A stretch of 35,195 nt of DNA from the IMG/VR virus record IMGVR_UViG_3300029954_000047, positions 1 through 35,195 of that record; one strand, written 5' to 3'. This DNA is from a virus. The notes under the pieces were generated by a model. The model had not been told where the DNA came from. It searched no databases and saw only the letters and a program-made list of their open reading frames with translations. The translations under genes were made by a program, and so were the position numbers. Shown here piece by piece: positions 3,250-26,746 of the stretch; the stretch's first letter is position 1, and every line of letters begins with the position of its first letter.

Positions 3250-3283
3250 GGTTCCGGCGAATTGCATTTGGAGAGATGCAACG

Positions 3284-4066: not shown

Positions 4067-4075
4067 AAAGGAGTG

Positions 4076-4160
4076 CCCCCCCATGGGGGTTCGGAGACGA
4101 AAGCCCACCACGCGCCTCCTCCGCCATCCTAATAGACAGCCCCCGATTGGGGGTTCGGAG
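4076..4160 (+). repeat. Two hairpin repeats at a convergent gene junction
   Basis: Two copies of the dispersed hairpin: one at 4076-4094 (C7-AT-G5-TTCGG) and one at 4140-4158 (C5-GATT-G5-TTCGG), both followed by AGAC. They are 64 bases apart and fill most of the 97-bp gap between two convergent genes. No T-tract follows either. Confidence 0.85.
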
Positions 4161-4163
4161 ACA

Positions 4164-4778
4164 TCAATCTGACGTCAGAACTAATCCCATGTAAGACACG
4201 CGCGAGCCCTTGTTGCCGTCCGCCTGCCAGCGGGATTTGATTTTCGCGTGCATGCGCCGGCAGACTTCCCGCAGCGCCCGCTCGATGATCTCTTCCCGCG
4301 CCGCGCCCATGCCCGGCATGTGGTATTTGATCCGCGCCAGCTTGGCAAAAGCCTTGCTGACGCCGCCCATGTTCATCTTCAGGCCGAGCCCTTCGGTCAG
4401 CACCATGCCGAGGACTTCGCCGGGCTGCAGCGGCCGCCGAGCCGCAAGGATCGTCACCTGCTCCCAGGGCGAGCCATAGGAGTCGAAGTCGAAGACGTTG
4501 AACTGGCCGAGGTCAATCGCGCGCATGACGCGCCGGTTGTCGCCGACATACGCAAGCCGGCCATCCTTGAACCAATCGGTGTCGCATCCTGTGTACCCAG
4601 CCGCTTTGCACCAGACTTCCCGGTGCATCGTGCCTTCGCCTGCGAACGCATCGAAGACCCGGGCCTTGTCGGCACCGATCGCCTCAAGCACCCGCTCGCG
4701 GACGCCCACCTTCGCCTTGGAGGCTGAGTGCGAATTGTCTCGCTTGCCGTAGCGCAATAGGTCGCCCGAGATGTCCAT
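4164..4778 (-). CDS. SAM-dependent methyltransferase-like protein
   Basis: A 204-aa Rossmann-type methyltransferase by motif. Residues 41-49 'VFDAFAGEG' form SAM motif I (D43, G47, G49) and 'GYTGCDTDWF' at 61-70 looks like motif II with an acidic residue after the strand. 'VFDFDSYGSPWEQV' at about 95-108 is motif IV. The D-x-D-x-YGSP form of motif IV recalls the tRNA guanine-N2 methyltransferase Trm1 (D-P-F/Y-G-S-P) more than the DPPY/NPPY of adenine-N6 DNA methylases, so the target could be RNA. That is inference. The second of two adjacent ATGs (4776-4778) has the better spacing from AGGAGG; the first (4781) overlaps the GcrA-like stop. It is the last gene of its minus-strand operon. Confidence 0.75.
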   Translation of the reverse strand: MDISGDLLRYGKRDNSHSASKAKVGVRERVLEAIGADKARVFDAFAGEGTMHREVWCKAAGYTGCDTDWFKDGRLAYVGDNRRVMRAIDLGQFNVFDFDSYGSPWEQVTILAARRPLQPGEVLGMVLTEGLGLKMNMGGVSKAFAKLARIKYHMPGMGAAREEIIERALREVCRRMHAKIKSRWQADGNKGSRVSYMGLVLTSD

Positions 4779-5068
4779 CATGACCTCCTGGGATATGGCG
4801 CCGGAATGCCCGGTGCTGGTCCCCGCATGGCGGCCGCCAGCCTGGCGAGGCGGGCACGGGTCGCCAGTGCCGCGACGGCGGCCATGTGACCGTCGGGCCG
4901 GTGCTGGCCGAGGCGGCAGGCCTGGTTGCGCAGCTGTCGGGCGTTGACCGGCGGTCCCCGGGTCTTCGCGTTGATCTCGTCAGCGATCGCGTGCGTGCTG
5001 CGGCCGGTCTCCCAGTGACTGACGACCAGCGCGTTGCGCTCAGGAGTCCACAGCCCGCGCTTCGTCAC
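4778..5068 (-). CDS. GcrA-like DNA-binding protein
   Basis: A 96-aa protein whose first 60 residues follow the GcrA N-terminal helix-turn-helix pattern: 'LWTPERNALVVSHWETGRST' then 'IADEINAKTRGPPVNARQLR' and 'NQACRLG' (compare W-t-e-r, L-w-a-e-G-l-s-a-s-q-I-A, and the R-n-A-V-i-g-K-x-h-R-L-G recognition helix). In Alphaproteobacteria GcrA works with CcrM-dependent GANTC methylation to activate sigma70 promoters; phage versions are known as putative regulators. The C-terminal 35 residues are Ala/Arg/Pro-rich and lack an obvious sigma-binding domain. The start is GTG with no strong SD, so the exact N-terminus is uncertain. Its TGA overlaps the first ATG of the methyltransferase gene. Confidence 0.7.
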   Translation of the reverse strand: MTKRGLWTPERNALVVSHWETGRSTHAIADEINAKTRGPPVNARQLRNQACRLGQHRPDGHMAAVAALATRARLARLAAAMRGPAPGIPAPYPRRS

Positions 5069-5108
5069 GGGAATCGCCGGCCCGTGGGTTTCATGCGGCC
5101 GGAGCGGC

Positions 5109-5327
5109 TCATCCCCGCACCGCCTTCAGCTCGGCGCGGGCGATGTCCACGGCGCACCCGACGCGCATTCCGGCCATCATTTTGTCGTCTGTCGTATCCG
5201 CGTCCTGTATTGCAATGGCCAATCGCTCCAGCGCCTCAGCCAGCGCGTCACGCTGGGCCGTCAGGCACTCGACCATCGCATTCGCGTTGACGATCGCCGT
5301 CAGCAGTTCGGCCGGGTCAATCCTCAT
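5109..5327 (-). CDS. Small hypothetical protein (72 aa)
   Basis: Unknown helical protein beginning MRIDPAELLTAIVNANAMVE, with heptad-like hydrophobic spacing through 'QRDALAEALERLAIAIQDA'. The ATG at 5325-5327 overlaps the upstream stop (ATGA), which decides this start over the one at 5372 that would lie inside the upstream gene. It belongs to a run of very small genes between the ParB-like and GcrA-like genes. Confidence 0.65.
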   Translation of the reverse strand: MRIDPAELLTAIVNANAMVECLTAQRDALAEALERLAIAIQDADTTDDKMMAGMRVGCAVDIARAELKAVRG

Positions 5328-5683
5328 GGCACGATCTCGGCCATGGCCGCATCCAGCACGCCACGAAACCACAGCATTGAATCGCGCTCGTGCTCAAGCC
5401 ATTCGACGCGCGCTGCCAACTCGTCACGCTGCGCAAGAGCCGCTGAAAGTTGCGCTGCCAGTTCCACGTTGCGCTCGTTTGCAGCGTCCAAATCGTCTGA
5501 CAGGTCGTCGTTTTCGTCTGCCAGAATATCGAACGCAATCCACAGTTGCTCGATAGTCATGTCAACTTCGATCGTCTCCGCATGGTCTGGATGCATGAAT
5601 TCCACAAGCGCCGTTACGCCTGCTATGTAGTCACTCGCTGCCAGCCGTTCGGCCGCGTTAGTCAGCAATATCCAGTCAACCAT
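5324..5683 (-). CDS. Coiled-coil hypothetical protein (119 aa)
   Basis: The N-terminus (VDWILLTNAAERLAASDYIA) is followed by an acidic stretch and then a long predicted coiled coil from about residue 50 to 100 ('IADENDDLSDDLDAANERNV', 'LAAQLSAALAQRDELAARVE'). No enzymatic motif is seen. It may be a scaffold or oligomerisation protein. A GAGGAGG element lies about 15 bases before the ATG, rather far, and the stop overlaps the following gene. Confidence 0.7.
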   Translation of the reverse strand: MVDWILLTNAAERLAASDYIAGVTALVEFMHPDHAETIEVDMTIEQLWIAFDILADENDDLSDDLDAANERNVELAAQLSAALAQRDELAARVEWLEHERDSMLWFRGVLDAAMAEIVP

Positions 5684-5725
5684 GTTTCGTTCACGCCCCT
5701 CCTCAGATCTGGCATGGCCGCGTCA

Positions 5726-5926
5726 TCAGTTGGCCGCCGGGAGCATGATGCCGCAGGCCAGGTTCCAGCAGCGCCAGCATGTGTGCGCCGGTGATTGCGG
5801 CTTGCCGTCGTCGCCGGTCGCACGGTAGCCCCTCGGCCCGTTGCATGTGAAACACCGCGCCTCGCTGTCATGCCGGCAGCGGGGCGGCTCATGCTCTCGC
5901 ATGCAGTCGAAACACACCTCACTCAC
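5726..5926 (-). CDS. Small Cys-rich zinc-ribbon-like protein (66 aa)
   Basis: Six paired cysteines (CFDC, CFTC, CWRC) plus further Cys and His residues suggest one or two bound zinc ions. The spacing CxxC...C.H...CxxC...HxCxxC fits a small treble-clef or zinc-ribbon protein. The start is GTG in a GTGA overlap with the upstream stop, which rules for this frame over a competing frame at 5662-5922 that has none of these pairs. Function is unknown; small zinc proteins of this kind are frequent in phage early regions. Confidence 0.7.
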   Translation of the reverse strand: MSEVCFDCMREHEPPRCRHDSEARCFTCNGPRGYRATGDDGKPQSPAHTCWRCWNLACGIMLPAAN

Positions 5927-6129
5927 GCCATCGCCTCGTGGATTTCCACATCGGTCGCGCCGGCCAGTATGGCTTCCTGCACGGCCGCTTCAAACAGCGC
6001 GTCCCATTCCTCATGTGACGTGCGGACCTGGCCAGATGATGAGCCTAAGCTCTCGAAGAACTTTCGTTCGGCCTCATGCGCATTGCGAAGTCGGCGGAGC
6101 CGTGCCAGCGTCTTTTCCTTGTCTTCCAA
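5923..6129 (-). CDS. Small hypothetical protein (68 aa)
   Basis: Charged helical protein (EDKEKTLARLRRLRNAHEAE) ending in an acidic, Ala-rich tail. I prefer the TTG start at 6129, one base after the upstream stop, because the longer frame to 6210 would overlap the upstream gene by 80 bases. A GGAAG element lies about 10 bases upstream. No family is recognised. Confidence 0.55.
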   Translation of the reverse strand: MEDKEKTLARLRRLRNAHEAERKFFESLGSSSGQVRTSHEEWDALFEAAVQEAILAGATDVEIHEAMA

Positions 6130-6130
6130 G

Positions 6131-6343
6131 TCACATCTTCCGTTGGAGGGCGAAGTTGAAAACCCGATCGACGATGGCAACGCTGAGCAAGTAAGCGCCT
6201 GTCTCGTCAACCTCCTTCACAGGGACAGTGACTTCGCCGCCCAGCCGGCGGACGAACGCAATCAGAAGCTGGTCTTTGAAATCGTCCAATAGCTGGGCAT
6301 GGTGCGGATTGTCCGCCCTCGCGAGGTCGATGCCGCTGCCCAC
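6131..6343 (-). CDS. Small hypothetical protein (70 aa)
   Basis: Unknown. The GTG start at 6341-6343 is chosen because GGGGAG lies 8 bases upstream and it follows the preceding stop by one base. The sequence has a helical N-half ('HAQLLDDFKDQLLIAFVRRL') and a beta-rich C-half ('EVTVPVKEVDETGAYLLSVA'). Nothing indicates an active site. Confidence 0.6.
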   Translation of the reverse strand: MGSGIDLARADNPHHAQLLDDFKDQLLIAFVRRLGGEVTVPVKEVDETGAYLLSVAIVDRVFNFALQRKM

Positions 6344-6344
6344 A

Positions 6345-6674
6345 TCACTTCTCCCCGAGGCGCGAGCGATAGCTCGCAATGATGCAATCGACCTGCCAGT
6401 AGAGGCCGGTGAGCGTGACATCCGGCACGCAGGTTGGCGCGCAACGACGGACCAGACTCCCCAGGCTGTCGATGATCCGCTCGCGTTCCTCGAATAGCTC
6501 TCGAATTAAGGCGCGAAAGTAGGGGTCCGCCAGCCCGCCGGCGGCCTTGCGCGCGAAATGCCGGATCGTGCGGTCCGGCGCGCTCGCCAGATCAAATCCG
6601 ACACCGGCCGGCGTCGCCCCCGCGACATCGGCATCATGCTCGCGAAACGCTTTCGCCAGACTTCTATGGTCCAT
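6345..6674 (-). CDS. Hypothetical protein (109 aa)
   Basis: Helical protein of unknown family starting MDHRSLAKAFREHDADVAGA. The ATG overlaps the TAA of the ParB-like gene, with GGAGG just upstream in that gene's last codons; the longer frame to 6791 is rejected. The middle ('DPYFRALIRELFEERERIID') suggests long amphipathic helices. The C-terminal half holds three Cys residues (C-x3-C and one later), too few for a clear zinc site. Confidence 0.65.
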   Translation of the reverse strand: MDHRSLAKAFREHDADVAGATPAGVGFDLASAPDRTIRHFARKAAGGLADPYFRALIRELFEERERIIDSLGSLVRRCAPTCVPDVTLTGLYWQVDCIIASYRSRLGEK

Positions 6675-7270
6675 TATGCGTCCTCCACCGTGCCAATCTC
6701 GATTTTCACGCCAGGATATTCGGCGAGCAGGTCTTTCATGCGCTGGAGAACGGCAGCCTGTTCGCCGAGCGGCCCGCGGACAGACACCCAAAAATGGTCG
6801 GTCACCGTCTGCGTCTCGACTTCATAAACCTCAAGCTCTCCATCCTCGAAACCCTCAAGCAGCTTGTTGGCTTCCTCGACGCTGTAGCCGGTGGCCAACC
6901 AGTCGCCCTCGCCAATCTCGGCCATGAGTTCCGCGACGCGGCGGTTGTCCAGCTCCGAGAGATCCTGCAGCCGATCGTCGGCGAGCATCACTCGGTCGGC
7001 GGTGGCCTGGTCGACGTCCCACAGGACCACGTTGATCTCGGTCCAGCCCAGCCGGCGCGCGGCGGTGTGGACGCCATGCCCGGCGATGAGCATGTGGTTG
7101 GCCTTGCGCGCGAGCAGCGGGCGCGTCTGTCCGTCCCGGCGCAGCGACGCCATGAGGCGGTTGATCTGTTCCTCGGGATGCTTGCGCGGATTGCGCGGGT
7201 TCGGGCGCAGCTCGCCGATCGGCGCTGTGGTCTGCTGCGCGATCTGCTGCTGCTTCGGAGGCTTGCTCAC
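6674..7270 (-). CDS. ParB/Spo0J-like nuclease-domain protein
   Basis: A 198-aa protein with an N-terminal ParB/Srx fold domain: 'IGELRPNPRNPRKHPEEQIN', 'RLMASLRRDGQTRPLLARKA' and 'LIAGHGVHTAARRLGW' match box I, the central helix and the G-H/E-G-R-x-x-A-A box (residues about 14-75). The next segment ('VMLADDRLQDLSELDNRRVA') resembles phage ParB-like proteins that lie near DNA methylases or terminases. No separate DNA-binding HTH is evident, so it is not a full partition ParB; phage members can be CTPase/nuclease-like or regulatory. The GTG start is in a GTGA overlap with the upstream stop. Confidence 0.85.
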   Translation of the reverse strand: MSKPPKQQQIAQQTTAPIGELRPNPRNPRKHPEEQINRLMASLRRDGQTRPLLARKANHMLIAGHGVHTAARRLGWTEINVVLWDVDQATADRVMLADDRLQDLSELDNRRVAELMAEIGEGDWLATGYSVEEANKLLEGFEDGELEVYEVETQTVTDHFWVSVRGPLGEQAAVLQRMKDLLAEYPGVKIEIGTVEDA

Positions 7271-7767
7271 GCGGCGGCCTCGTGCCGTCCGAAGAAGTGG
7301 TCGGCGAGGGTATCGAGCCCGGAGGCCACATGGGCCGCGGCGCTGGCCCGGCGGATGCGCCTGCGGAGCGCCAGTCCGTCCACCGTGCCGCCGAGGCATA
7401 CCCAGGCAGTGGCGGCCCGCTGGTCGGCGTCAAGCCGCTCCAGCGCCTCCCTGGCTTCCCTGGTTGCGCCAATCTGGCCCGTCGAGATTGCGGCGCGGAG
7501 ATATGGCGCAACGTGGACCTCGCTGCCGCCCGAGCATACCGACGGCTCCATGCGCTCCAACAAATTGCGCAGTTCCTCGCCCGCATCATAACCGCGGCCC
7601 GTTATGCCTCCGCAATGGTAGAGCGTCCAGAGCGGATCAACGCGCCGGGCGCGGCGGACCACCTGGTTCGGGCATCGCGGGTCCGCCCCATACTCCCAGA
7701 CGATGCCGCCGTCGCCCCTGCAGACGGCGCCCGGCGGTTCCTGCCGCCGGGGTTGCCGCCGCGCCAT
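7267..7767 (-). CDS. DUF6456-like protein (166 aa)
   Basis: The region 'DPLWTLYHCGGITGRGYDAG' followed by 'EELRNLLERMEP', and the C-terminal 'SGLDTLADHFFGR', follow the pattern of alphaproteobacterial DUF6456 proteins (P-L-x-L...l-i-t-x-x-q-x-x-A-G-e-x-L-R; a closing x-L-x-x-L-A-x-H-Y-G). These proteins look like sigma-region-4-type helix-turn-helix domains, and the segment 'LALRRRIRRASAAAHVASGL' would be the equivalent HTH. The role is probably DNA binding. The ATG sits in a TGATG overlap with the upstream stop. This assignment is from memory of the family and needs a profile search. Confidence 0.6.
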   Translation of the reverse strand: MARRQPRRQEPPGAVCRGDGGIVWEYGADPRCPNQVVRRARRVDPLWTLYHCGGITGRGYDAGEELRNLLERMEPSVCSGGSEVHVAPYLRAAISTGQIGATREAREALERLDADQRAATAWVCLGGTVDGLALRRRIRRASAAAHVASGLDTLADHFFGRHEAAA

Positions 7768-8078
7768 CAGGCGGCCGGAGGCGCCGGTGGCGCAGCCGGG
7801 TCTGCCGCGGCAAGCGCCGGCGAGACGGGGGGAGGCGCCGGCGCGGTGCCGGCGAGCGCGGCGGTGATCTGCGCCGCCGCCCCGCCAAGCGATGCGTGAA
7901 GCTCCGCGAGCTCCGACAGTTGTTCGGGTGTCGCGCCCGCCTCCACCGCCGCGGCCACGGCAGTCGCTATCAGCGTCGAGACGGCCGCCGGTGTTGCGGC
8001 GACCTCGGCCTGAAGGGCCGCGTTGTCGGAGATGAGCTGCTTGATCGCGCTGTCGAATGTCGCCGTCATGGTGTTCAC
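7767..8078 (-). CDS. Ala/Pro-rich hypothetical protein (103 aa)
   Basis: The first 75 residues are Ala-rich helices with 'FDSAIKQLISDNAALQAEVA'; the last 25 are a Pro/Ala tail. Similar short proteins occur in phage genomes without a known role. Two starts are possible: GTG at 8078 and ATG at 8069, the latter about 7 bases after AAAGGG. It is the first gene after the repeat-rich 344-bp intergenic region, so its leader carries the hairpins and a purine-rich (GAAAA)3 stretch. Confidence 0.65.
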   Translation of the reverse strand: MNTMTATFDSAIKQLISDNAALQAEVAATPAAVSTLIATAVAAAVEAGATPEQLSELAELHASLGGAAAQITAALAGTAPAPPPVSPALAAADPAAPPAPPAA

Positions 8079-8096
8079 CCTTTCTTTTCTTTTCTT

Positions 8097-8178
8097 TTCG
8101 AACCCCCAGTGCGGGGCGCTGCGTCAGGCCGGTTGTTCAACCGCGCCGCCGATCTTTCCGAACCCCCGTGTGGGGGGC
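8097..8178 (-). repeat. Two hairpin repeats, minus orientation
   Basis: Read on the minus strand: GCCCCGCACTGGGGGTTCGA at 8099-8118 and a C5-ACAC-G5-TTCGGAAAG copy at 8154-8176. Each is preceded on the same strand by TGACGCAGC (boxes at 8120-8126 and 8182-8188), the same box-plus-hairpin order as in the plus-strand copies at 16381 and 17100. Confidence 0.8.
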
Positions 8179-8345
8179 CGCTGCGTCATATGCGTCATAT
8201 GCTGCGTCACAAACCGCCTTCGGACCGGGGATGGTGCGTCATAAAGTGCGCCCTTTAGGGCGCTTTGTGACGCAGCCGTCCTCCGGCGGCCTTTCGGTGC
8301 GTCATAAAATGCGTCACAAACCGAAGCCGACGACCGGGTTTTCCT

Positions 8346-8419
8346 TTCCGAACCCGCAACGCCAGGGGGCGCCGGCTGTGCCGGCTTCCGAAACAATTCT
8401 TGCATTTTCCAACCCCCGC
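8346..8419 (-). repeat. Degenerate hairpin repeats, minus orientation
   Basis: At 8346-8369 the minus strand reads CCCCTGGCGTTGCGGGTTCG followed by GAAAGG: the tail is conserved but the stem is partly lost and the loop changed. At 8406-8416 only the right half remains (GGGGGTTGGAAAATG). Between them GCCGGC-ACA-GCCGGC (8371-8385) forms another small hairpin. Confidence 0.55.
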
Positions 8420-8422
8420 CCA

Positions 8423-9673
8423 TCACACTACGGTCCCAGGCCGTTTGAGATCGTCAACCACCAAACCGAGCCGGTCGCGGCGCTGCTCCGGGTCCCGGTA
8501 GGGCGTCTCCCGCAAAACGCCGGACTTGATCCAAACCCCGATCATCCTGGCCGCCACAACATCGGTCACGCCAAACAGGTCCACCAGCACCTTGCCGGCC
8601 CACCTGGCTCCGTCGCCTCGCCTTGACGAGGTGTATCGGACACCATCGCGCGGCCCGGCGGCGATCCGGTCGAGCCCCTCGTTGCATTGGATGACGGTCA
8701 GATCTCCGAACACCGAAGGAGGCTCCCAACTGACAATCGCGGCCACGCTGTCGCCATGCGGATAAATCGCGGTGCCGTTGTGCAGATCGACTTGCGCAAG
8801 CTCATACCATGACGCCTTGCAGGCCCGGACGCTCATGTTCGCCTTGGCGTTGTCCAGCCGGACGTAGTGGCCGGACTCGTCCTTCTCGATGCCAAGCTCG
8901 GCGGCGTCGGTCTCCGACATAGGGCTCATCAGCAGGCCGACGCGCGCGGAATCGGTCAGCGCCTTCGCGCCACGTGCGGAGTCGATCCCGTCGGCCGGCC
9001 CTTTGCGGAGATGGTGGACGAGCAGGATGGCGCATCCGGTTGCGCGTGCGACCGAGCGCCACGCCTTCGCCGCACGGATCATCTGCGGGTTGGAGTTTTC
9101 CTCAAGCTCGTGGGTCTCCGCGAACGGATCGACGGCCAGCGCGCCGAGTTGGTGATCGTTGATGGCGCGGATCAGAGCCTCGACGTCTGGATGCACGATC
9201 TCCGAGCCGTCGTCGGCGACCCTCGCGATCGACAGTTCCCGCTCGTCGCCGGAGTTGAGCCAGAAGTGTCCCTGCAGCTCGTCCTTGCCGATGTTGTGTC
9301 TGATCTGGAACGCGGCCATGCGGCGCTCCAGCTCGTCCAGAGGGTCTTCGAGGTTGATGTAGGCGGTGTTCACCCGCTCGAAGATGTGCTGGTCAAGCAG
9401 CCGGCGCCCGGCCGCGAGCGACGCCATCACGCCCATGGCGTAGAGGGATTTGCCGGTGCCACCCGGCGCCACGAGGAGCGACAAAAATCCGCGCAGGAGC
9501 TGCGTGCCATAGAGCCAGGGGCGCGGCGGAAGCGTGCTGGCGATTGGCAGGCGGGCGGCCCGCAACAGGAATGGACTGTCGCTGTCAACGACCTTGAGAT
9601 GCCCGCGACGCTTGCTCCTGCCGAGAAGCTCGTCGTCGGAGGGCGGCGGATCACGCGGCGAATCGCTTGCCAT
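8423..9673 (-). CDS. RepA-like AAA ATPase (AAA_25, replicative-helicase-like)
   Basis: A 416-aa RecA-fold ATPase of the RepA/AAA_25 group. Walker A is 'LVAPGGTGKSLYAMG' (P-loop at about 69-76), then 'TAYINLEDPLDELERRMAAF' typical of hexameric RepA-type helicases, Walker B-like 'LGALAVDPFAETH', and 'ATGCAILLVHHLRKGP' (sensor strand with HH). Further on, 'ARGAKALTDSARVGLLMSPM' and 'DNAKANMS' are also characteristic. Such proteins act as replicative helicases of plasmids such as RSF1010 and of many phages. The ATG at 9671-9673 has GGAGG 7 bases upstream and overlaps the previous gene by 23 bases; the longer frame to 9727 is not supported. The tandem repeats just downstream make a replication role attractive. 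Confidence 0.88.
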   Translation of the reverse strand: MASDSPRDPPPSDDELLGRSKRRGHLKVVDSDSPFLLRAARLPIASTLPPRPWLYGTQLLRGFLSLLVAPGGTGKSLYAMGVMASLAAGRRLLDQHIFERVNTAYINLEDPLDELERRMAAFQIRHNIGKDELQGHFWLNSGDERELSIARVADDGSEIVHPDVEALIRAINDHQLGALAVDPFAETHELEENSNPQMIRAAKAWRSVARATGCAILLVHHLRKGPADGIDSARGAKALTDSARVGLLMSPMSETDAAELGIEKDESGHYVRLDNAKANMSVRACKASWYELAQVDLHNGTAIYPHGDSVAAIVSWEPPSVFGDLTVIQCNEGLDRIAAGPRDGVRYTSSRRGDGARWAGKVLVDLFGVTDVVAARMIGVWIKSGVLRETPYRDPEQRRDRLGLVVDDLKRPGTVV

Positions 9674-10118
9674 ACCGCGACCTCCTGTAGGGAGCCGCTG
9701 CGCGGATGATCTCGCCGGACCGCTCAAGCAGCAGCTCGCGCGGAAGCAGGGTGCCGAACTGCCCGTTCACGGCCTGGGCTTCGGCGACGATCTGGGGGGT
9801 GGCGGCGTCGGCCCGGCCAAGCGGCCACATCCGGGACTTCAGCGTGGCGAGCATGCGGCGCGCATGCTCGCATGCGTCCCGCCACTCCGCCTTGCCGGCC
9901 AAGGCTCCGTCCTCGAAGGGGTAGCCGCAGATTTGGGCGTGCTGGGTGACCGCCAGATAGACTTCGCACTGGTGCGTGTATGGCTCGTCGGCATCGTCGC
10001 CGGCCAGGTGCCACGCGGCCAGCATCCGGGCGTAGCCCCTGATCCACTCGCGGAGATACCGCACGCGGGCAACGGAAGAGGCGTCGGCGCCAGGCGGCGG
10101 TTTGGGATGCGGCGTCAT
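9651..10118 (-). CDS. Hypothetical protein (155 aa)
   Basis: Unrecognised helical protein with many Trp, His and Arg residues ('YLREWIRGYARMLAAWHLAG', 'WRDACEHARRMLATLKSRMW'). The ATG is in an ATGA overlap with the upstream gene, and its 3' end overlaps the RepA-like start by 23 bases. Its place next to the helicase suggests a replication accessory role, but nothing in the sequence proves it. Confidence 0.7.
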   Translation of the reverse strand: MTPHPKPPPGADASSVARVRYLREWIRGYARMLAAWHLAGDDADEPYTHQCEVYLAVTQHAQICGYPFEDGALAGKAEWRDACEHARRMLATLKSRMWPLGRADAATPQIVAEAQAVNGQFGTLLPRELLLERSGEIIRAAAPYRRSRYGKRFAA

Positions 10119-10327
10119 GACGGCGGGCCAATCCGGGCGATCTGGCGCAGCGCGTTGGCAAGCCCGGAGACCTCGTCCTCGATCTCGGTATCACTCAGGC
10201 GCTCGGCGGCCGAGAACCGCGCGAACGCATCCACGGCGTTGCGCTGTGCGGCGATCCAGCGCCGGTTTACCGGGGAGGGATAAAAAACCTCATGGGGGAG
10301 CGGGCGCCGGAGCGGTGGCAGTTCCAT
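10115..10327 (-). CDS. Small hypothetical protein (70 aa)
   Basis: The N-terminus is Pro-rich (MELPPLRRPLPHEVFYPSP), followed by two helices ('WIAAQRNAVDAFARFSAAER', 'DTEIEDEVSGLANALRQIAR'). It ends in an ATGA overlap with the next gene. The family is unknown. Confidence 0.65.
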   Translation of the reverse strand: MELPPLRRPLPHEVFYPSPVNRRWIAAQRNAVDAFARFSAAERLSDTEIEDEVSGLANALRQIARIGPPS

Positions 10328-10330
10328 TGG

Positions 10331-10423
10331 TCACCACCGGCCGAGGTTCGCGACAGCGACGCTGCCGGGCACATGGAGCAGCGACGCGATGCGGGGCGGA
10401 TCTCTGGTGATGGGCGGGATCAC
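10331..10423 (-). CDS. Possible 30-aa protein between RuvC-like and 70-aa genes
   Basis: A frame starting GTG at 10421-10423 in a GTGA overlap with the RuvC-like stop, preceded by a strong GGGAGG SD 8 bases upstream. It reads IPPITRDPPRIASLLHVPGS then VAVANLGRW after the start residue and stops 3 bases before the next ATG. Without it there would be a 93-bp gap in an otherwise gapless operon. The coupling and SD favour translation; the product may be a true microprotein or may just keep ribosomes loaded for the next gene. Confidence 0.5.
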   Translation of the reverse strand: MIPPITRDPPRIASLLHVPGSVAVANLGRW

Positions 10424-10944
10424 GCGGCGATCCTCCCGCGCAGCTTGAGGATCGAGGCCCGATGCTGCCAGACGATCAATGCGTCGGCGCAATTGTCATC
10501 CGGGACTTCCTTCCAGCCCCGCCACGAGCAATATCGCAGCACGGCGGCCTTGGCCTCTTTGCGCGGCAGGTTGCCGACGCCGATGACGGCTTTTCTTGCT
10601 GTGCAGCAATGGACGCGCTGGACGCGGACGGAGTGCCGGTAAGCGGTGGCTTCGACGATGCCGGCCAGGGCGAATTGCTGGAACGACGCCTCCTCGTTCC
10701 TGGTGCCCCTGGCTGTGGCAGCCATTGCCCGATCCAAGGGGGCTTCGACGGCGACTTCGGACGGGCGGAACATCTCCAGCGCGTCGTCGAGCTCGTTTTC
10801 AAGCGCGGCAAAGCCGGCGCCCCAGCTAATGTGCGTCGGCAAATGCCACGTACCGTACGCCGGCCGGTCGACCTCCGGGCAGCCGTATGCCCAGCCCGTG
10901 ACGTAGGACAGGTCCAAGGCCAACACGCCCCCGGGCGCTGACAT
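10420..10944 (-). CDS. RuvC-like Holliday junction resolvase
   Basis: A 174-aa RNase H-fold nuclease of the RuvC superfamily. The acidic residues fall where expected: D11 in 'VLALDLSYVTGWAYG', E67 in 'SEVAVEAPLDRA', and D150/D154 in 'VPDDNCADALIVW', after a 'RKEAKAAVLRYCSWRGW' segment typical of phage RuvC proteins. It would cleave branched DNA during recombination or before packaging. The size matches family members. The ATG forms a TGATG overlap with the GapR/RMF-like gene. With the RecE-like nuclease and Sak4-like ATPase across the divergent region, it completes a recombination set. Confidence 0.9.
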   Translation of the reverse strand: MSAPGGVLALDLSYVTGWAYGCPEVDRPAYGTWHLPTHISWGAGFAALENELDDALEMFRPSEVAVEAPLDRAMAATARGTRNEEASFQQFALAGIVEATAYRHSVRVQRVHCCTARKAVIGVGNLPRKEAKAAVLRYCSWRGWKEVPDDNCADALIVWQHRASILKLRGRIAA

Positions 10945-11696
10945 CAGCTCAGGCCGAAGGCGCCTTCCGGGGCTTTGCCGTTGGCGCGGTTCCTGCTCCC
11001 AGGGGGCCGGCCGCGACGCTTGCTTTCAGGGGGAGCCGCCTGCTCTTCTTCGCAGAAGATCTCATCGACGACAGCTTGCTGCAGCTTGTCGGACCGCGCC
11101 TTTCTCGGGTTGGCTTGCTTGGCGTTCGCTCCGAGCTTGGCGGCGATGGCGGCCTGCCCGCGCATGAAGCCGCGGTCGAACTCGACAAACAGAGCGGTGC
11201 CGGTGGCGTAAGGGTTGTCGTCGACGCGGCTCTTGCCCTGCTTGCCGGCGGTGAACCCGGCCTCGCCGGCGGCCCACGCCCGCTGTTCGGCGGACGCGTC
11301 GTCCGATGGCGGCTCGTTCTTGTCTCCGACCCCCCTGACGGGGGCGATTCCGCCGTCGAGATCTGCGAGCGCCGCCGTCTGCGGGAACAAACTGAACTGC
11401 GATCCGAGGGGCATCTCGAGCCAGGACGCGTACTGTATGGCCCGGCGCAGTTGCCCCTCCGCTTCGTCGTTGTCCAGCACCAGCAGCTTCTGCACCAGCT
11501 TGAAGGAGGCCAGGTCAACGCCCGACTCCTTCGCTTCCTTCTTGGCCCTCGCCAACTCCGCGCCGGCATTCCTGTGCGCCGTCGCGAGATCAGAGATTTG
11601 CCGAAAGTGCTTCAGAAACGTGTCCGGGCGCAGGTTTCCGAGGGGCAGGCTTTGCGCGCCGTTGGCGGCGTGGTTTCCGGCGTGTGGGTGTGGCAT
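10944..11696 (-). CDS. GapR-like / RMF-like / AT-hook fusion protein (250 aa)
   Basis: Three recognisable parts. Residues 25-95 ('FLKHFRQISDLATAHRNAGA', then 'AKKEAKESGVDLASFKLVQK') resemble the GapR/DUF2312 coiled-coil DNA-binding family. Residues 138-186 ('AWAAGEAGFTAGKQGKSRVD', 'NPYATGTALFVEFDRGFMRG') match the ribosome modulation factor pattern A-x3-G-x2-A-G-x2-G...N-P-Y...W/F-x2-G. Residues 227-234 (KRRGRPPG) form an AT-hook core. A hairpin-repeat copy codes for residues 118-126 in the linker. The ATG at 11694-11696 follows GGAGG by 7 bases; it overlaps the repressor gene by 107 bases in another frame. It is likely a DNA-binding or host-takeover protein; whether the RMF part binds ribosomes is unknown. 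Confidence 0.75.
   Translation of the reverse strand: MPHPHAGNHAANGAQSLPLGNLRPDTFLKHFRQISDLATAHRNAGAELARAKKEAKESGVDLASFKLVQKLLVLDNDEAEGQLRRAIQYASWLEMPLGSQFSLFPQTAALADLDGGIAPVRGVGDKNEPPSDDASAEQRAWAAGEAGFTAGKQGKSRVDDNPYATGTALFVEFDRGFMRGQAAIAAKLGANAKQANPRKARSDKLQQAVVDEIFCEEEQAAPPESKRRGRPPGSRNRANGKAPEGAFGLS
11322..11345 (-). repeat. Hairpin repeat copy inside a coding sequence
   Basis: On the minus strand: CGCCCCCGTCAGGGGGGTCG followed by GAGAC. It keeps the C5-N-G5 stem and the GGAGAC tail of the 4.1-kb copies. It is read in frame as A-P-V-R-G-V-G-D in the linker between the GapR-like and RMF-like parts. Confidence 0.65.
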
Positions 11697-11946
11697 TTGT
11701 CGCCTCCGTAAGCGCGTTTGGGTACAGGCGTGGAAGTTTGAAGTCAGGCGGAGGCTCCCAAAGGTCCGGGCGCAGCGCATGGCGCGGGATGCCGAGCGCC
11801 CGTTCAATGGCGACGGCGTTTTCGGCCATCATCACCCGGTCGCCGGCGATCCAATAGTTGATCGTTTGGCGCGGCATGCCGAGCACGCGCGCAACCGCCC
11901 GAGGTGTCAGACCATACCTGGTGAAAACATCCGCCAGATCCACCAT
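11590..11946 (-). CDS. Cro/YdaS-like HTH repressor
   Basis: A 118-aa protein with an N-terminal helix-turn-helix: 'MVDLADVFTRYGLTPRAVAR', 'VLGMPRQTINYWIAGDRVMM', then 'AIERALGIPRHALRPDLWEP'. The ending R-P-D-L-W/y-P is characteristic of YdaS/Cro-type phage and antitoxin regulators. Residues 75-118 are a basic Arg/Lys/Pro tail. The ATG at 11944-11946 starts the conserved region; a longer frame to 12087 would cover the operator. The SD is weak and a TGTGACGCACA dyad lies 9-19 bases before the start, so autorepression is plausible. It is first in the leftward operon and divergent from the recombination genes, the usual site of an immunity or Cro-type repressor. Confidence 0.8.
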   Translation of the reverse strand: MVDLADVFTRYGLTPRAVARVLGMPRQTINYWIAGDRVMMAENAVAIERALGIPRHALRPDLWEPPPDFKLPRLYPNALTEATNATPTRRKPRRQRRAKPAPRKPAPGHVSEALSANL

Positions 11947-14333: not shown

Positions 14334-14556
14334 CGGGCGCGACGCCAGCCGCACGTTCCGCGCCATGATGGCGTTCGACCTGTGGCTGCGCCGGTTCCCA
14401 CGACCCGGGGAGAGGCGACTGACCAGGAGCCAGCGCGAGGCGAGGTCGCCATGGTTGGGGATGGCGGCTTTCTTCGTTGCCGCGACGGCGCTGACGGCCG
14501 CACTGGTCGCCATGCCGATGTTCATGTGCCTGGGAGCCGGCGCGATGGCGCCATGA
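14317..14556 (+). CDS. Small membrane protein (79 aa)
   Basis: A basic N-terminal half ('LWLRRFPRPGERRLTRSQRE') precedes one long hydrophobic segment, 'WLGMAAFFVAATALTAALVA' then 'MPMFMCLGAG', long enough for one membrane helix or a tight hairpin. GGGAGG lies 7 bases before the ATG, and the start overlaps the Sak4-like gene by 17 bases. Function is unknown; it is too far from the lysis cassette to call a holin. Confidence 0.65.
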   Translation: MSQWTDGRDASRTFRAMMAFDLWLRRFPRPGERRLTRSQREARSPWLGMAAFFVAATALTAALVAMPMFMCLGAGAMAP

Positions 14557-14572
14557 CATTGGAGAGGGGAAA

Positions 14573-14893
14573 ATGTCTCAGGAAACAACGAGGCCGCTGC
14601 CGAGGCCGCTGCCGAGTCTCGACTGGAACCGCGTCACCTGGTCAGCGCCGGATGAGAGGCCGATCCGGCGTATCGCAAAGGGAAGCACGCCGCGGCGCCC
14701 GGTCCTAGCGTACGTGGGGGTGTTGTTTGGCGCGGATGGACGGACGGGTTCCGCTTTCACCTGGCGGGTGTGCTCCTATTGCGGCGACGATCTCGACGAA
14801 GACGAGGTGGCTCTTATGACTTTCGGGGCAGACACACGCACGGCCATTTTCTGCGAGATGTGCCAGGTGCGGCATTGGGCGGGAGCATTATGA
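14573..14893 (+). CDS. Zinc-finger-like hypothetical protein (106 aa)
   Basis: The N-terminal 50 residues are Pro/Arg-rich, then 'FTWRVCSYCGDDLDEDEVAL' and 'AIFCEMCQVRHW' supply two CxxC pairs about 30 residues apart, a likely zinc-ribbon. SD GGAGAGGGG sits 5 bases before the ATG. The stop overlaps the next ATG. Role unknown. Confidence 0.7.
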   Translation: MSQETTRPLPRPLPSLDWNRVTWSAPDERPIRRIAKGSTPRRPVLAYVGVLFGADGRTGSAFTWRVCSYCGDDLDEDEVALMTFGADTRTAIFCEMCQVRHWAGAL

Positions 14894-15099
14894 ACCGCGC
14901 CCTGAAACCCGGCGGACCCGTCGGCATCCTCGTGGACGCTTTCTGCGCGGTCGCGGCGCTCGCCGAGCCAAGCCCGGAAGTCGCGCGGCTGGTCGCGACC
15001 ATTGGGCAGATCGCCGACGAACCCACCCTGAAGCTCTGCGAGAGCTTCCAGTTGAGGAAACAGATCAATGCAGTCCGAAACCTCTCCGCCCGCCGCTGA
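14890..15099 (+). CDS. Small hypothetical protein (69 aa)
   Basis: Hydrophobic-helical N-terminus ('GILVDAFCAVAALAEPSPEV') and a helical C-terminus. The ATG lies in an ATGA overlap with the preceding zinc-finger gene, which decides this start over the longer frame from 14770. Family not recognised. Confidence 0.6.
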   Translation: MNRALKPGGPVGILVDAFCAVAALAEPSPEVARLVATIGQIADEPTLKLCESFQLRKQINAVRNLSARR

Positions 15100-15256
15100 C
15101 AGCCGGAAGGAGCCCATGCCGCCGTTCGCGCATGTGGCCATCACGGATCTGATCGGGCTGCTCCACGGAATGACCTCCGACCAACTATTCCTCCTGCTCT
15201 CTGCCGCCCGGGGCATGATTCAGCAAAACCGCAAACGCCAGGGGTCGGGAAAATAA
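15068..15256 (+). CDS. Small hypothetical protein (62 aa)
   Basis: Pro/Ser-rich start then one helix pair ('AITDLIGLLHGMTSDQLFLL', 'LSAARGMIQQNRKR'). GAGG lies 9 bases before the ATG, inside the previous gene, which it overlaps by 32 bases. No family recognised. Confidence 0.6.
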   Translation: MQSETSPPAADSRKEPMPPFAHVAITDLIGLLHGMTSDQLFLLLSAARGMIQQNRKRQGSGK

Positions 15257-15271
15257 TGAGGGAGGCCGCGC

Positions 15272-15682
15272 ATGACGGTTCTCGTTCTCGGCATCGAGCA
15301 GCAAGCCGCCCTGGTGGCGCTACGCGCCCGCGCCTCCAATGAAATCCTTGACGCCCGCGAGGTGATGGCCGCGGTCAAGACCCGGGAGGGAGACGCCATT
15401 CACCGGCGGCGGATGGAAAAGCTGACCATCGAGATACCGGCCGCCTACGTGGTCACCTTTTCGATCGAACGCCAGCCAACGGTCGGGCTGTGCCGCCACG
15501 CCAGCGTCTCGGTCCGCCGGTCGTGCCGCGCGCCCGGTCCGCAAGCCGTGTGGCTGATCGCGAAGGAGCTGGGCTTCCGGGGCTCACTCACGGACTGCCG
15601 GATCTGGCCTGAGCTGCTTCAGGATGGCCGAGTGGCCGCCAACCTTGTGCAGCCCTTGCAGCCGGCGGAGCAGCCGGCATGA
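15272..15682 (+). CDS. Hypothetical protein (136 aa)
   Basis: Unknown. GGGAGG lies 7 bases before the ATG. An N-terminal helical half ('QQAALVALRARASNEILDAR') is followed by a beta-strand-rich half ('IEIPAAYVVTFSIERQPTVG', 'ASVSVRRSCRAPGPQAVWLI'). A C-terminal helix reads 'IWPELLQDGRVAANLVQPLQ'. Three Cys are present but not in CxxC pairs. The stop overlaps the next start (ATGA). Confidence 0.65.
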   Translation: MTVLVLGIEQQAALVALRARASNEILDAREVMAAVKTREGDAIHRRRMEKLTIEIPAAYVVTFSIERQPTVGLCRHASVSVRRSCRAPGPQAVWLIAKELGFRGSLTDCRIWPELLQDGRVAANLVQPLQPAEQPA

Positions 15683-15978
15683 GAAACGGCGCCGTGATTC
15701 GCATCGAAGCCGATGCCGCAGGCTATCCCTGCCAGGGGCGAGGCCAATACCTCTCGCGGTTCGATCCCGAGGCGCGGCGCGGAAGGGGGAAAATCACCAC
15801 AACCGCGGATCCCACGCGCGCCATGATCTTCAGCACGCACGAGGAGGCGCTGGCCTGCTGGCGGCGCCAGAGCACGGTGCGGCCGCTGCGGGATGACTTG
15901 GAGCCCAACAGGCCGCTCACGGCGTTCACCATTTCCATCCTTAGCGTGGCCGATGCGCTGCAGGGTATGCCCTGGTGA
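15679..15978 (+). CDS. Hypothetical protein (99 aa)
   Basis: Mixed alpha/beta small protein ('AVIRIEADAAGYPCQGRGQY', 'ARRGRGKITTTADPTRAMIF', 'STHEEALACWRRQSTVRPLR'). The Y-L-x-x-F...G...T-x-D-P-x-x-A-x-x-F...A-x-x-x-W pattern looks like a compact domain that recurs in phage early proteins, but I cannot name it. Linked by ATGA to the gene before and GTGA to the gene after. Confidence 0.65.
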   Translation: MRNGAVIRIEADAAGYPCQGRGQYLSRFDPEARRGRGKITTTADPTRAMIFSTHEEALACWRRQSTVRPLRDDLEPNRPLTAFTISILSVADALQGMPW

Positions 15979-16310
15979 GCCGCCCGCAGAAGGCCTTCCT
16001 GCCCGCGGGCGACGGGCCGGCAGACGAGGCAGACGAGGCAGAGCAGGCTCAGTGGCGCGTGGCGTGGTTCGATTCCGGGTGCCGCGCCCGCTATCGGGAC
16101 TCCCGGTCCCAACGCGACTTTCCAAACGGCATCGACCTGAATCCCCGGTGGGACCCCAACACAACCTGCCGTGTCGTGCTGCCATACCCCACAACCGGAA
16201 TGGGTTATTACACCGTCGTCTGCAACATATGCGGGGTCACCAAGACCATCGCCACCAACGGACAACGGGATGATCCGCGCAGCGCACGGATAGCGTGCAG
16301 GCGGCTGTGA
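15975..16310 (+). CDS. Hypothetical protein with CxxC knuckle (111 aa)
   Basis: The N-half is acidic and low complexity. The C-half 'CRVVLPYPTTGMGYYTVVCN' then 'ICGVTKTIATNGQRDDPRSA' resembles a conserved domain in alphaproteobacterial phage proteins that ends with V-x-C-x-x-C-G...T...G-R-x-D-D-P-R-S. A single CxxC plus C109-type residues could bind zinc. The GTG start overlaps the preceding stop. Role unknown. Confidence 0.7.
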   Translation: MSRPQKAFLPAGDGPADEADEAEQAQWRVAWFDSGCRARYRDSRSQRDFPNGIDLNPRWDPNTTCRVVLPYPTTGMGYYTVVCNICGVTKTIATNGQRDDPRSARIACRRL

Positions 16311-16650
16311 CCGGCAACCGCATCAGGAAATATTTTTCAGGACCAGTTGCTTATCGCACCGTTCCTGGGCAAGCTATCCCTGACGCAGCCCCCGCATGGG
16401 GGTTCGGAAACCTCCGAGTCCGGGGCGCACGGAGTGACACAGGCCCCGCATGGGGGTTCGGAAATGTAACAGAGAGCTTTGGGCCACCCAGCCGCGACGA
16501 ACGGCTGAATGGCCCGCAACACAGACAAACGGGAACGCCAATTCCCCGATAGTCGCCGGCCTTTGGAGATTTTGCAAGAGGCAACTCTGCGAAAAAGTCG
16601 GTCTGTGTCGCGGTGCTGGGTGGCCCTTGGCTCAAGCCAGGAGCCGGCGC
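16311..16650 (+). other. Intergenic region carrying two hairpin repeats
   Basis: A 340-bp stretch I judge non-coding. It contains a TGACGCA box (16381-16387), hairpin copies at 16389-16410 and 16444-16464, and little else. Frames through it translate the repeats as PAWGFGN, and no SD supports them. The right end supplies the SD (AGGAG) for the winged-helix gene. Confidence 0.6.
16389..16464 (+). repeat. Two near-consensus hairpin repeats
   Basis: CCCCCGCATGGGGGTTCGGA at 16389-16408 (then AA) and a copy one C shorter at 16444-16462. The first is preceded directly by TGACGCAG; the second has lost that box. Confidence 0.9.
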
Positions 16651-17202
16651 GTGGAAAAAAAGTGGAATGACATGGTCGAGGCCGAGGCCGCGGAGAGCCG
16701 CCGGCTGGGCTTGCAGATGTCCCGGGCGCTGGTCGCCCTGCATCATTTTGATGGACCGGAGGGCTGTTTTCCGGCTCTGAAAACGATTGCCGGGGCCGCT
16801 GACGTTTCGGTCGGGACCGTGCTGGAGGCCATCAGGCGTGCCGAGGAGATGGGCTACCTGGTCGTGGTCAGGAGCCAGACGGAGATGGTAGCCAGGGGCT
16901 CTCGTGTGGTGCCCGTCCGCCGCCCGAACAGGTACTTTTTCCGTCTCCCGGAGGCCGCGGTGCCACACAAGGATGCCGGCCTCGAGTGGCGTGCGGCATG
17001 GCGGGCGGCATGGTGGGCGGCCAAAAACGCCCGCCGGCGTCCTGATTCCAGTCTCCGTTGTGTAAACACGGTACCTAACTCTTTTCCTTTTGAATCGGAT
17101 GACGCAGCCCCCGCATGGGGGTTCGGAAAGTTTTGCATGCCGTCGGCCGGCCTGGCGGCGCTGCGCGTTGCCCGGGCCGCCGCTCTGGGCGTCTCGGGGT
17201 GA
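16651..17202 (+). CDS. Winged-helix DNA-binding protein with repeat-encoded tail
   Basis: A 183-aa protein from a GTG that follows AGGAG by 7 bases. An N-terminal basic helix (WNDMVEAEAAESRRLGLQMS) is followed by a MarR/GntR-like winged helix: 'ALVALHHFDGPEGCFPALKT', 'IAGAADVSVGTVLEAIRRAE', 'EMGYLVVVRSQT', then a wing 'GSRVVPVRRPNRYFF'. Such proteins in phage early regions are often replication initiators or regulators. Near the C-terminus a hairpin repeat (17108-17130) is translated in frame as DDAAPAWGFGK, so the last 45 residues are probably a late addition. A longer frame from 16450 reads through an upstream repeat and is not favoured. Confidence 0.7.
   Translation: MEKKWNDMVEAEAAESRRLGLQMSRALVALHHFDGPEGCFPALKTIAGAADVSVGTVLEAIRRAEEMGYLVVVRSQTEMVARGSRVVPVRRPNRYFFRLPEAAVPHKDAGLEWRAAWRAAWWAAKNARRRPDSSLRCVNTVPNSFPFESDDAAPAWGFGKFCMPSAGLAALRVARAAALGVSG
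17108..17130 (+). repeat. Consensus hairpin repeat inside the winged-helix gene
   Basis: C5-GCAT-G5-TTCGGAAAG preceded by TGACGCAG (17100-17107), matching the 16.4-kb copy over about 30 bases. It is read in frame within the C-terminal tail of the winged-helix protein. Confidence 0.9.
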
Positions 17203-17207
17203 AACAG

Positions 17208-17230
17208 CCCCCGGCATGGGGGTTCGGAAA
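17208..17230 (+). repeat. Hairpin repeat after the winged-helix gene
   Basis: C5-GGCAT-G5-TTCGGAAA with one extra loop base. It starts 6 bases after the winged-helix stop. A small AGCA tandem repeat follows at about 17232-17246. Confidence 0.85.
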
Positions 17231-17345
17231 ATAGCAAGCAAGCAAGCGGCTCAGGAACAAGGAAGGCAGCACGGACCGGACACACACATTGACCAAGGTG
17301 CCGCAAGAAGCCGATTCTGCCCAGGCAGACAGGGGAGACTGTGTC

Positions 17346-17801
17346 GTGAGCGAGGGGGATGGGGAGGATTATGGGCCTTTCCCGGAGCGGGTGAAGTGCG
17401 GCTATCGGCCTGCGTCTCCCATGGAGATGGACGCCTTGTCGTTGGAGTGGGCCAGCGAGACAGCCGGCCGCCGGTTTTACGAAGTCATTCGCGCCACCAT
17501 AGAGACTTTCGTTAGCGAGGCGGTTCTGCCGCGCCCCTCCAACCTTCTTTCCGCCGACCAGGCGCGGTATGAGGCGGCGGCCTCGATGTTGGACTGTGCG
17601 GTCCAGGTCGCCGAGGACATTATGGGGAACAAGGACGCGTGGGACCTTTTCGGCGAGATACTCGCCGGGATGGAAGCTCCCCCGCCGGAGGGAACGCCGA
17701 AACCCACGCCCGGAGGCCCATATGGAGACCGGCTAGCCGAAAAGTTGCGCCTCCAGCGCCAGCGCCAGAAAGCCGCCCGGAAGGCGTCCCGCCGCTCCTG
17801 A
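17346..17801 (+). CDS. Hypothetical protein (151 aa)
   Basis: Acidic N-terminus, helical centre ('SLEWASETAGRRFYEVIRAT', 'ARYEAAASMLDCAVQVAEDI') and a Pro-rich then Arg/Lys-rich C-terminus. The GTG at 17346 follows GGGGAG by 9 bases; a TTG at 17289 would give 170 aa without a good SD. Family unknown. Hairpin repeats flank the gene on both sides. Confidence 0.65.
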   Translation: MSEGDGEDYGPFPERVKCGYRPASPMEMDALSLEWASETAGRRFYEVIRATIETFVSEAVLPRPSNLLSADQARYEAAASMLDCAVQVAEDIMGNKDAWDLFGEILAGMEAPPPEGTPKPTPGGPYGDRLAEKLRLQRQRQKAARKASRRS

Positions 17802-17831
17802 CGTCTCCGGAGGCGTAGGGCCGCTGCACAG

Positions 17832-17877
17832 CCCCCGCATGGGGGTTCGGAAAGACGAACGTGGGGGTTCGGAAAGG
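17832..17877 (+). repeat. Hairpin repeat plus adjacent half copy
   Basis: A full consensus copy (17832-17853) is followed within 4 bases by a right half, GTGGGGGTTCGGAAAGG (17861-17877). The tandem half copy suggests local duplication. Confidence 0.85.
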
Positions 17878-17885
17878 GTGGGGGG

Positions 17886-17985
17886 GGTTATCCTGTGCGC
17901 TTGCGGATTGGATTGCCCGGCGGTATATCGGGTGGGCCGCCGGGGCAATCCTGGCGGATAACCTCGGTTATTTGGAGAGATAACC
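17886..17985 (+). promoter_or_regulatory. Operator-like box cluster upstream of the RHH-like gene
   Basis: GGTTATCC (17886-17893) and GGATAACC (17956-17963) bracket a 14-bp inverted repeat: GGATTGCCCGGCGG at 17910-17923 and its complement with one extra G at 17937-17951. GGTTAT (17966-17971) and GATAACC (17979-17985) follow, the last abutting the ATG. The layout suggests autoregulation by the RHH-like protein, or a partition-type site. Confidence 0.6.
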
Positions 17986-18516
17986 ATGGATAGCCATTCC
18001 GAAAAGAAGACGATAGTCAACGTGAAAGGCGTGTCGCTCGCCACCTGGGAAGCCGCCAAAAAGGCCGCCAATTTGTCCGGCGAGACCATGGGCGCGTGGC
18101 TTAACCGCTGGATTGCCCATGCCGTGGAGCAGGAGGCGGGCGGGCGGATATTTCCGCCGCTCCCAGCCGATAATCCGGGGCAATCCAAGGGAAATCCGGG
18201 CACAGGTTATCCGGTGGCCCACCTGGGAAATCCGTCGCTCGCGGTCGCCTTCCTGAAGGAGCTGGCGCCGGTCGCGGCGGCGCTAGGGGAGAAGCTGTCC
18301 CGGCAGGCCGCCATCGACGTGTCGGCTGCGGTCTCCCTGTTCGCGCGCGAGGCTCAGGGCAAGCCGCCGCGGAACCGGAAGAGGCAGAGCGTCCCCCCGC
18401 ATGAAGGGTTGGGAAAGGAAAGGGTTGGCGGATTAGCCGACGGATTAGAATCGCCGGATTCTGGTCAAGCCATCTCGCGGAATGAGACGTTTGAGGAAAG
18501 TGTGGTGGTTGCATGA
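17986..18516 (+). CDS. Ribbon-helix-helix-like DNA-binding protein (176 aa)
   Basis: Residues 8-50 ('TIVNVKGVSLATWEAAKKAA', 'NLSGETMGAWLNRWIAHAVE') fit a ribbon-helix-helix/Arc-type domain: a beta strand, then two helices with the G-E-T-M-G-x-W-L pattern common in alphaproteobacterial phage and plasmid proteins. The middle is Pro/Gly-rich and its DNA repeats the upstream box sequences. Then comes a helical part ('SLAVAFLKELAPVAAALGEK') and a basic, low-complexity C-terminus where a degenerate hairpin repeat is translated as SVPPHEGLGK. GGAGAG lies 7 bases before the ATG. Likely an autoregulated DNA-binding protein; a partition role is possible but no ParA is seen. Confidence 0.7.
   Translation: MDSHSEKKTIVNVKGVSLATWEAAKKAANLSGETMGAWLNRWIAHAVEQEAGGRIFPPLPADNPGQSKGNPGTGYPVAHLGNPSLAVAFLKELAPVAAALGEKLSRQAAIDVSAAVSLFAREAQGKPPRNRKRQSVPPHEGLGKERVGGLADGLESPDSGQAISRNETFEESVVVA
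18391..18418 (+). repeat. Degenerate hairpin repeat inside the RHH-like gene
   Basis: GTCCCCCCGCATGAAGGGTT then GGGAAAGG: the left arm and GCAT loop are intact, the right arm is damaged. It is read in frame as SVPPHEGLGK. Confidence 0.6.
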
Positions 18517-18523
18517 GCGGCGT

Positions 18524-18540
18524 CCCCCGCATGGGGGGAG
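18524..18540 (+). repeat. Hairpin repeat at the second convergent junction
   Basis: C5-GCAT-G6 starting 8 bases after the RHH-like stop; the TTCGGA tail is replaced by AGG. It is the main feature of the 66-bp gap between the convergent genes ending at 18516 and 18583. Confidence 0.8.
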
Positions 18541-26742: not shown

Positions 26743-26746
26743 CGGC

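Follow-up and report, generated by a model that had tools for sequence, protein, structure and literature searches.

Dispersed intergenic repeats that are private to a phage are best described in mycobacteriophages, where stoperators, sites at which the bound phage immunity repressor stops elongation, revealed an unusual form of prophage silencing. In the Cluster A mycobacteriophages (L5 type), stoperators are short (13-bp) asymmetric repressor sites that recur in many copies in the short gaps between genes within a single group of phages, with an orientation that correlates with transcription (PMC9283540). The SAS and ESAS elements of the Cluster K mycobacteriophages are restricted to the non-structural half of the genome, where 11 to 19 copies lie mostly in one orientation; host genomes have few or none of them, about half come with an inverted repeat for which RNA pairing is unsupported, and the SAS are found 3 to 7 bp upstream of start codons and include AGGAG (PMC3203893). 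A third type, the 17-bp dyad TGTTCGG-NNN-CCGAACA of the Cluster O mycobacteriophages (Corndog), is symmetric with no meaningful orientation, combines invariant arms with a variable center, and is found in >30 copies between and inside ORFs (PMC4351075). A further comparison is offered by the GTAG/CGTC REPs, 20- to 40-bp palindromes that occupy mostly gaps, many of them downstream of genes, with some inside genes, and whose dimers are mostly HH or TT (PMC3733652).

We analyzed a window of 35,195 bases (64% GC) that constitutes a whole virus record and is probably a fragment of a phage genome; no capsid, portal, or terminase genes were identified among the proteins of the window scanned. It carries a family of short hairpins with a TTCGGA tail. 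Like the stoperators, this family is an asymmetric site repeated in short gaps and oriented with transcription, but its sites combine a C5/G5 palindrome with a tail, no repressor was identified, and the host is probably an alphaproteobacterium. Like SAS/ESAS, it lies in the non-structural half in one orientation and in similar copy number, with no multi-copy counterpart in the host-family genomes searched, whereas its copies stand after stop codons or in mid-gap and not at starts. The likeness to the Corndog dyad, also a repeated phage dyad and one that has the word GTTCGG in common with it, is looser than the other two, the present family being asymmetric with C/G arms. By its defining features, the family belongs to none of these three types. 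A REP/MITE-like identity had been suggested in a first-pass annotation of this DNA, and the repeats do resemble the GTAG/CGTC REPs in being short palindromes that are mostly in gaps and sometimes inside genes. Identity as a host-type REP is not supported: there is no constant GTAG/CGTC tag (GACG, the reversed form of CGTC, is found at 3 nt from the stem in two of the nine core copies only and at a greater distance in two others), all five pairs are head-to-tail, the RAYT/Y1 transposase domain PF01797 is absent from the window (a fragment; an enzyme supplied by the host could also work in trans), and no multi-copy family was found in the 347 genomes of the probable host family that were searched. 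The copies also differ from intrinsic terminators in that their GC stem is followed by only TT, with no U-tract. A directional hairpin-plus-tail set with a defined 22-nt sequence in a probable Acetobacteraceae phage would extend the described cases beyond mycobacteriophages.

The phage fragment and its hairpin repeats

Gene ends were derived from ORFs, GC3, and family hits, with no gene finder. The early genes lie on the plus strand from 0 to 4.07 kb, on the minus strand from 4.16 to 11.8 kb, and on the plus strand from 12.3 to 18.5 kb, and the minus strand from 18.8 to 35 kb carries tail and lysis-type genes. Among the early genes are those for a DUF5131 protein (2293-3183) and a ParB-like/methyltransferase-associated protein (6674-7399). 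Because similar tail proteins come from Caulobacter and Rhodobacter phages and the nearest helicase relatives come from Acetobacteraceae and Rhodospirillales genomes, the host probably belongs to the Acetobacteraceae/Rhodospirillales group, with Acetobacteraceae as the probable family. Two other samples hold a tail protein 100% identical to that at 25606-26811 (L019, IMGVR 3300045776_000101, and L020, 3300030020_000797), and this identity indicates that the phage of the window, or one very close to it, is present there again; both contigs end before the early region. Searches of viral contigs with the exonuclease, initiator-like, and Sak4-like proteins recovered no relatives, and no close relative covering the early region of the window was found.

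This phage contains a dispersed, directional, mostly intergenic hairpin repeat family. With up to three mismatches allowed, its consensus matched the window 8 times, versus 0 times in 100 dinucleotide shuffles, and a gapped hairpin-plus-TTCG pattern gave 17 overlapping matches against 0.14 expected. A weight matrix, made from most of the nine copies that it then scores, gave these copies scores of 20.7 to 36.6, the best shuffle score being 15.2. A covariance model built from the nine core copies recovered two copies outside its training set, at 11318-11352(-) (E = 3.5e-6) and 8340-8383(-) (E = 3.4e-5), together with weak matches to a stem-only copy at 18524 (E = 0.004) and a degenerate one at 18384 (E = 0.055). 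The shuffle controls and the two unseen copies confirm that the family noticed in the first-pass annotation is real. It comprises nine copies with a 22-nt core, two degenerate copies (11.3 and 8.34 kb), and three fragments (17.86, 18.39, and 18.52 kb), as follows.

4073-4098, plus strand: core copy CCCCCCCATGGGGGTTCGGAGA, 9 nt past the stop of ORF 3224-4066; convergent genes on either side
4137-4162, plus strand: core copy CCCCCGATTGGGGGTTCGGAGA, second in a head-to-tail pair; convergent genes on either side
8094-8119, minus strand: core copy CCCCGCACTGGGGGTTCGAAAA, adjoining an outer TGACGCA repeat; upstream of ORF 7770-8078(-)
8154-8179, minus strand: core copy CCCCCACACGGGGGTTCGGAAA, adjoining an outer TGACGCA repeat
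8340-8383, minus strand: degenerate copy with intact tail GGGTTCGGAAAGG and degraded stem, past the helicase stop
11318-11352, minus strand: degenerate copy CCCCCGTCAGGGGGGTCGGAGAC, within ORF 10944-11807(-)
16381-16415, plus strand: consensus copy with TGACGCAG directly 5'
16435-16469, plus strand: core copy with TGACACAG 5' of it
17100-17134, plus strand: consensus copy with TGACGCAG directly 5', within the 3' end of a winged-helix (replication-initiator-like) ORF
17200-17235, plus strand: core copy directly after or overlapping the TGA stop of the initiator-like ORF
17824-17858, plus strand: consensus copy past the stop of ORF 17289-17801
17863-17876, plus strand: half copy GGGGGTTCGGAAAG without the 5' arm, 22 nt beyond the 17824 copy
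18384-18421, plus strand: degenerate copy (weak match), within ORF 17986-18516
18524-18537, plus strand: stem only, CCCCCGCATGGGGG, 8 nt past the stop of ORF 17986-18516; convergent genes

A hairpin at 0.85 kb (851-866), previously listed as a copy, was rejected as a member; its C5/G5 stem is followed by TCACGTC and lacks the TTCGGA tail, and it is absent from the covariance-model matches.

The core of the nine copies reads C5-N4-G5-TTCGGARA, with C or G at the fifth position of the 5' arm [CCCC(C/G)-N4-GGGGG-TTCGGARA], and the span from C5 to G5 is 14 nt in nearly all copies. The alignment was anchored on GGGGGTTCG, which forces the G run and TTCG; unforced, yet constant in 9/9 copies, are CCC at 5'-arm positions 2 to 4 and the two A's of the tail. 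Mean pairwise identity is 0.88 in the 5' arm, 0.60 in the loop, and 0.96 in TTCGGA, and it is 0.35 over the 8 nt upstream and 0.29 over the 9 nt downstream. Since the flanks are unrelated among copies, the conserved unit is limited to about 22 nt, and the unit of about 30 bp that had been proposed from the presence of TGACGCAG directly before the stem is not supported. This word does abut the stem at 16.38 and 17.10 kb, but at 8.13 and 8.19 kb it stands 2 to 3 nt further upstream, and only a subset of the copies (4/10) have it at 0 to 3 nt upstream at all.

Stem-preserving substitutions, which the first-pass annotation had named as a test of the family, are absent: there are no two-sided changes in 50 cells, 94% of which are paired, and the invariant stem pairs are neutral evidence on pairing. 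Predicted fold energies are ordinary relative to shuffles (best z, -1.8), so neither covariation nor energy gives an argument for RNA structure. The constant sequence of the stem and tail beside a freer loop points instead to sequence-specific recognition of the site rather than to a generic hairpin. A tRNA-like T-arm reading of GGGGGTTCGGA was discarded, as ARAGORN detects no tRNA.

Placement and distribution of the copies

Eleven of the 14 copies are intergenic, whereas gaps account for 15.9% of the first 19 kb (p of about 4e-7 when counted by copy and 3e-4 by cluster, with gene ends taken from ORFs and GC3 only). The remaining three, at 11.3, 17.1, and 18.39 kb, are inside predicted ORFs, and no homologues of the proteins concerned were found among the compared loci. 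Every scored copy is on the strand of the local gene, so the agreement of tail direction with local transcription, earlier reported for most copies, extends to all of them. A sign test gives 8/8 with p of about 0.008 when sites are counted separately and is not significant when they are counted as four regions, the 16- to 18.5-kb copies being taken as one event. Five head-to-tail pairs (4.07/4.14, 8.17/8.11, 16.39/16.44, 17.11/17.21, and 17.83/17.86 kb) have spacings of 22 to 101 nt. Copies follow stop codons at 4.07, 17.2, 17.8, and 18.52 kb and occur at both convergent junctions (4.07-4.16 and 18.52-18.58 kb). The tail module is indeed free of copies, as had been observed, but this carries little weight as evidence of restriction to early regions because the late half is nearly gapless, with 207 intergenic bases in 16,195 versus 3027 in the first 19 kb.

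The exact consensus was not found in 84,980 species genomes, and a looser pattern gave one single match in 347 genomes of the Acetobacteraceae, the family to which the nearest helicase relative (L036, titled Acetobacteraceae) belongs. The covariance model, applied to 100 genomes from the order, recovered scattered weak single matches, at most two per genome. Neither set thus contains a multi-copy family, contrary to what a host-type REP element would lead one to expect. On 49 related loci, the model scored well only in contigs fetched by the pattern itself, and these loci hold no multi-copy counterpart. Four viral contigs (L009 to L012, of which L009 and L011 resemble each other) and L069 have one clear copy each but are otherwise unrelated and were treated as chance or generic GC hairpins. 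BLAST searches of phages and plasmids with the 31-nt unit gave only partial, chance-level matches, and the papers found to contain the sequence were unrelated. Rfam gave 0 matches above the gathering score, in agreement with the earlier failure to match the hairpin to a named family. Within the reach of these data, and in collections that may lack close relatives, the repeat family is confined to this phage lineage.

The TGACGCA array beside the helicase

Two of the copies adjoin an array of short repeats next to a helicase gene.

8423-9727, minus strand: AAA_25 helicase, homologue of RSF1010 RepA (PDB code 1g8y; E = 2.5e-25)
8120-8316, minus strand: array of eight TGACGCA repeats in both orientations; putative replication origin

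The eight words fall within 410 nt directly downstream of the helicase, where other 410-nt windows of the record have at most three of any one comparable word, and the array is centered on an inverted pair, TGCGTCA...TGACGCA, around a hairpin, GCGCCC-TAAA-GGGCGC. Relatives among viral and bacterial contigs repeat another word of the same shape at the same place, namely, TGGCGCA or TGGCGCG in many Acetobacteraceae and Rhodospirillales, TGTGGCA in a Sphingomonas, and TGGAGCA or TGCGGCA elsewhere. The repeat is of a TGNNGCA type whose two central bases differ between lineages (L036 to L065, downstream of the helicase match). Many relatives also have a central inverted repeat with the array words as arms around a GC hairpin (e.g., TGTGCGCCATTCCCCCCC-TTCAG-GGGGGGGAATGGCGCACA in L065), the stem sequences of which differ while pairing is kept. 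Two (L052 and L054) have neither array nor inverted repeat, and a few more do not rise above shuffle level.

RSF1010-like origin logic involves RepC, RepB', and ssi sites, an ssi site being a single-strand hairpin used by a dedicated primase. By comparison with it, the array beside the helicase is probably a replication origin, and the conserved TGNNGCA-type arrays around a cruciform beside RSF1010-RepA-like helicases would constitute a family of candidate origins in alphaproteobacterial genomes. Relatives retain the array and cruciform but lack the TTCGGA hairpin, which is no part of the conserved helicase/array module. On the minus strand, a (GAAAA)n run (8079-8108) separates the last hairpin from the start of ORF 7770-8078 and immediately precedes a possible ribosome-binding site. 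In L016 (2403-2781), about 17 to 19 tandem 15-nt repeats probably belong to a pentapeptide-repeat gene. AlphaFold models of the initiator-like protein (mean pLDDT, 42) and of a 287-aa protein (mean pLDDT, 46) were not usable.

Possible roles of the repeat

We tentatively favor the explanation that the family is private to the phage and serves, at the ends of early genes, as a recognition site that is read in the sense direction and acts on early transcripts or on their synthesis. Recognition, by a factor that the phage or its host encodes, would take place at one of two levels: on nascent RNA, where the C5/G5 hairpin and its UUCGGA tail would be read, or on DNA in front of the RNA polymerase, where the same sequence would be. 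Its effect would be to alter, at the boundaries of genes, how early transcripts are elongated or what becomes of their 3' ends. The likeness to phage-private regulatory repeats lies in the many copies, the single orientation, the location in gaps, the sharp core, and the absence from the host-family genomes searched. Against the recognition-site reading, we count the three copies inside ORFs, the ordinary fold energies, and the reduction to four independent orientation points if the 16- to 18.5-kb copies are one event.

A functionless REP/MITE-like or copy-paste repeat, multiplied within the phage lineage and tolerated in gaps, could account for the degenerate or fragmentary copies that lack an arm or tail (8.34, 17.86, 18.39, and 18.52 kb), for the perfect copy inside an ORF whose frame is unbroken, and for the confinement to a single genome. 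We nevertheless consider it less likely than the favored explanation, since the core is conserved while the loop and flanks are not (among copies that cannot be dated), every copy is in sense orientation, the pairs have a head-to-tail arrangement in contrast to REP dimers, most of which are HH or TT, and neither a Y1 transposase nor a target-site duplication was seen in the window. That the copies are plain 3'-end hairpins, which stabilize transcripts or end them without a U-tract and need no special recognition, would suit the strong C5/G5 stem and the sites just past stops (4.07, 17.2, 17.8, and 18.52 kb) and at both convergent junctions. This is improbable in view of the sense direction, in which only TT and no T-run follows the stem and in which a terminator scan lists no copy; the stem, moreover, lacks compensatory variation, and the tail is conserved as much as the stem.

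There is a similarly low probability that the hairpin is an ssi-like or initiator-binding site for RSF1010-RepA-like replication, with extra copies near an initiator-like gene. Two copies directly adjoin the array, at its outer repeats, beside a helicase homologous to RSF1010 RepA, four of ten have TGACGCAG 0 to 3 nt upstream, and those at 16.38-16.44 and 17.10-17.20 kb flank the winged-helix, replication-initiator-like ORF. However, six of the ten are without the iteron, no primase was identified in the window, relatives keep the array and cruciform without the hairpin, and orientation tracks transcription and not the side of the array, the 4.1- and 16- to 18-kb copies, which flank it on opposite sides, sharing a strand. 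A further reading, which we hold to be quite improbable, is that the hairpin and its UUCGGA tail form an RNA-level tag that was assembled from origin-adjacent sequence. A factor encoded by the phage would read this tag where genes of the early operons end and would serve in antitermination, in processing, or in protection. If true, this would tie control of early transcripts to the origin in an Acetobacteraceae phage.
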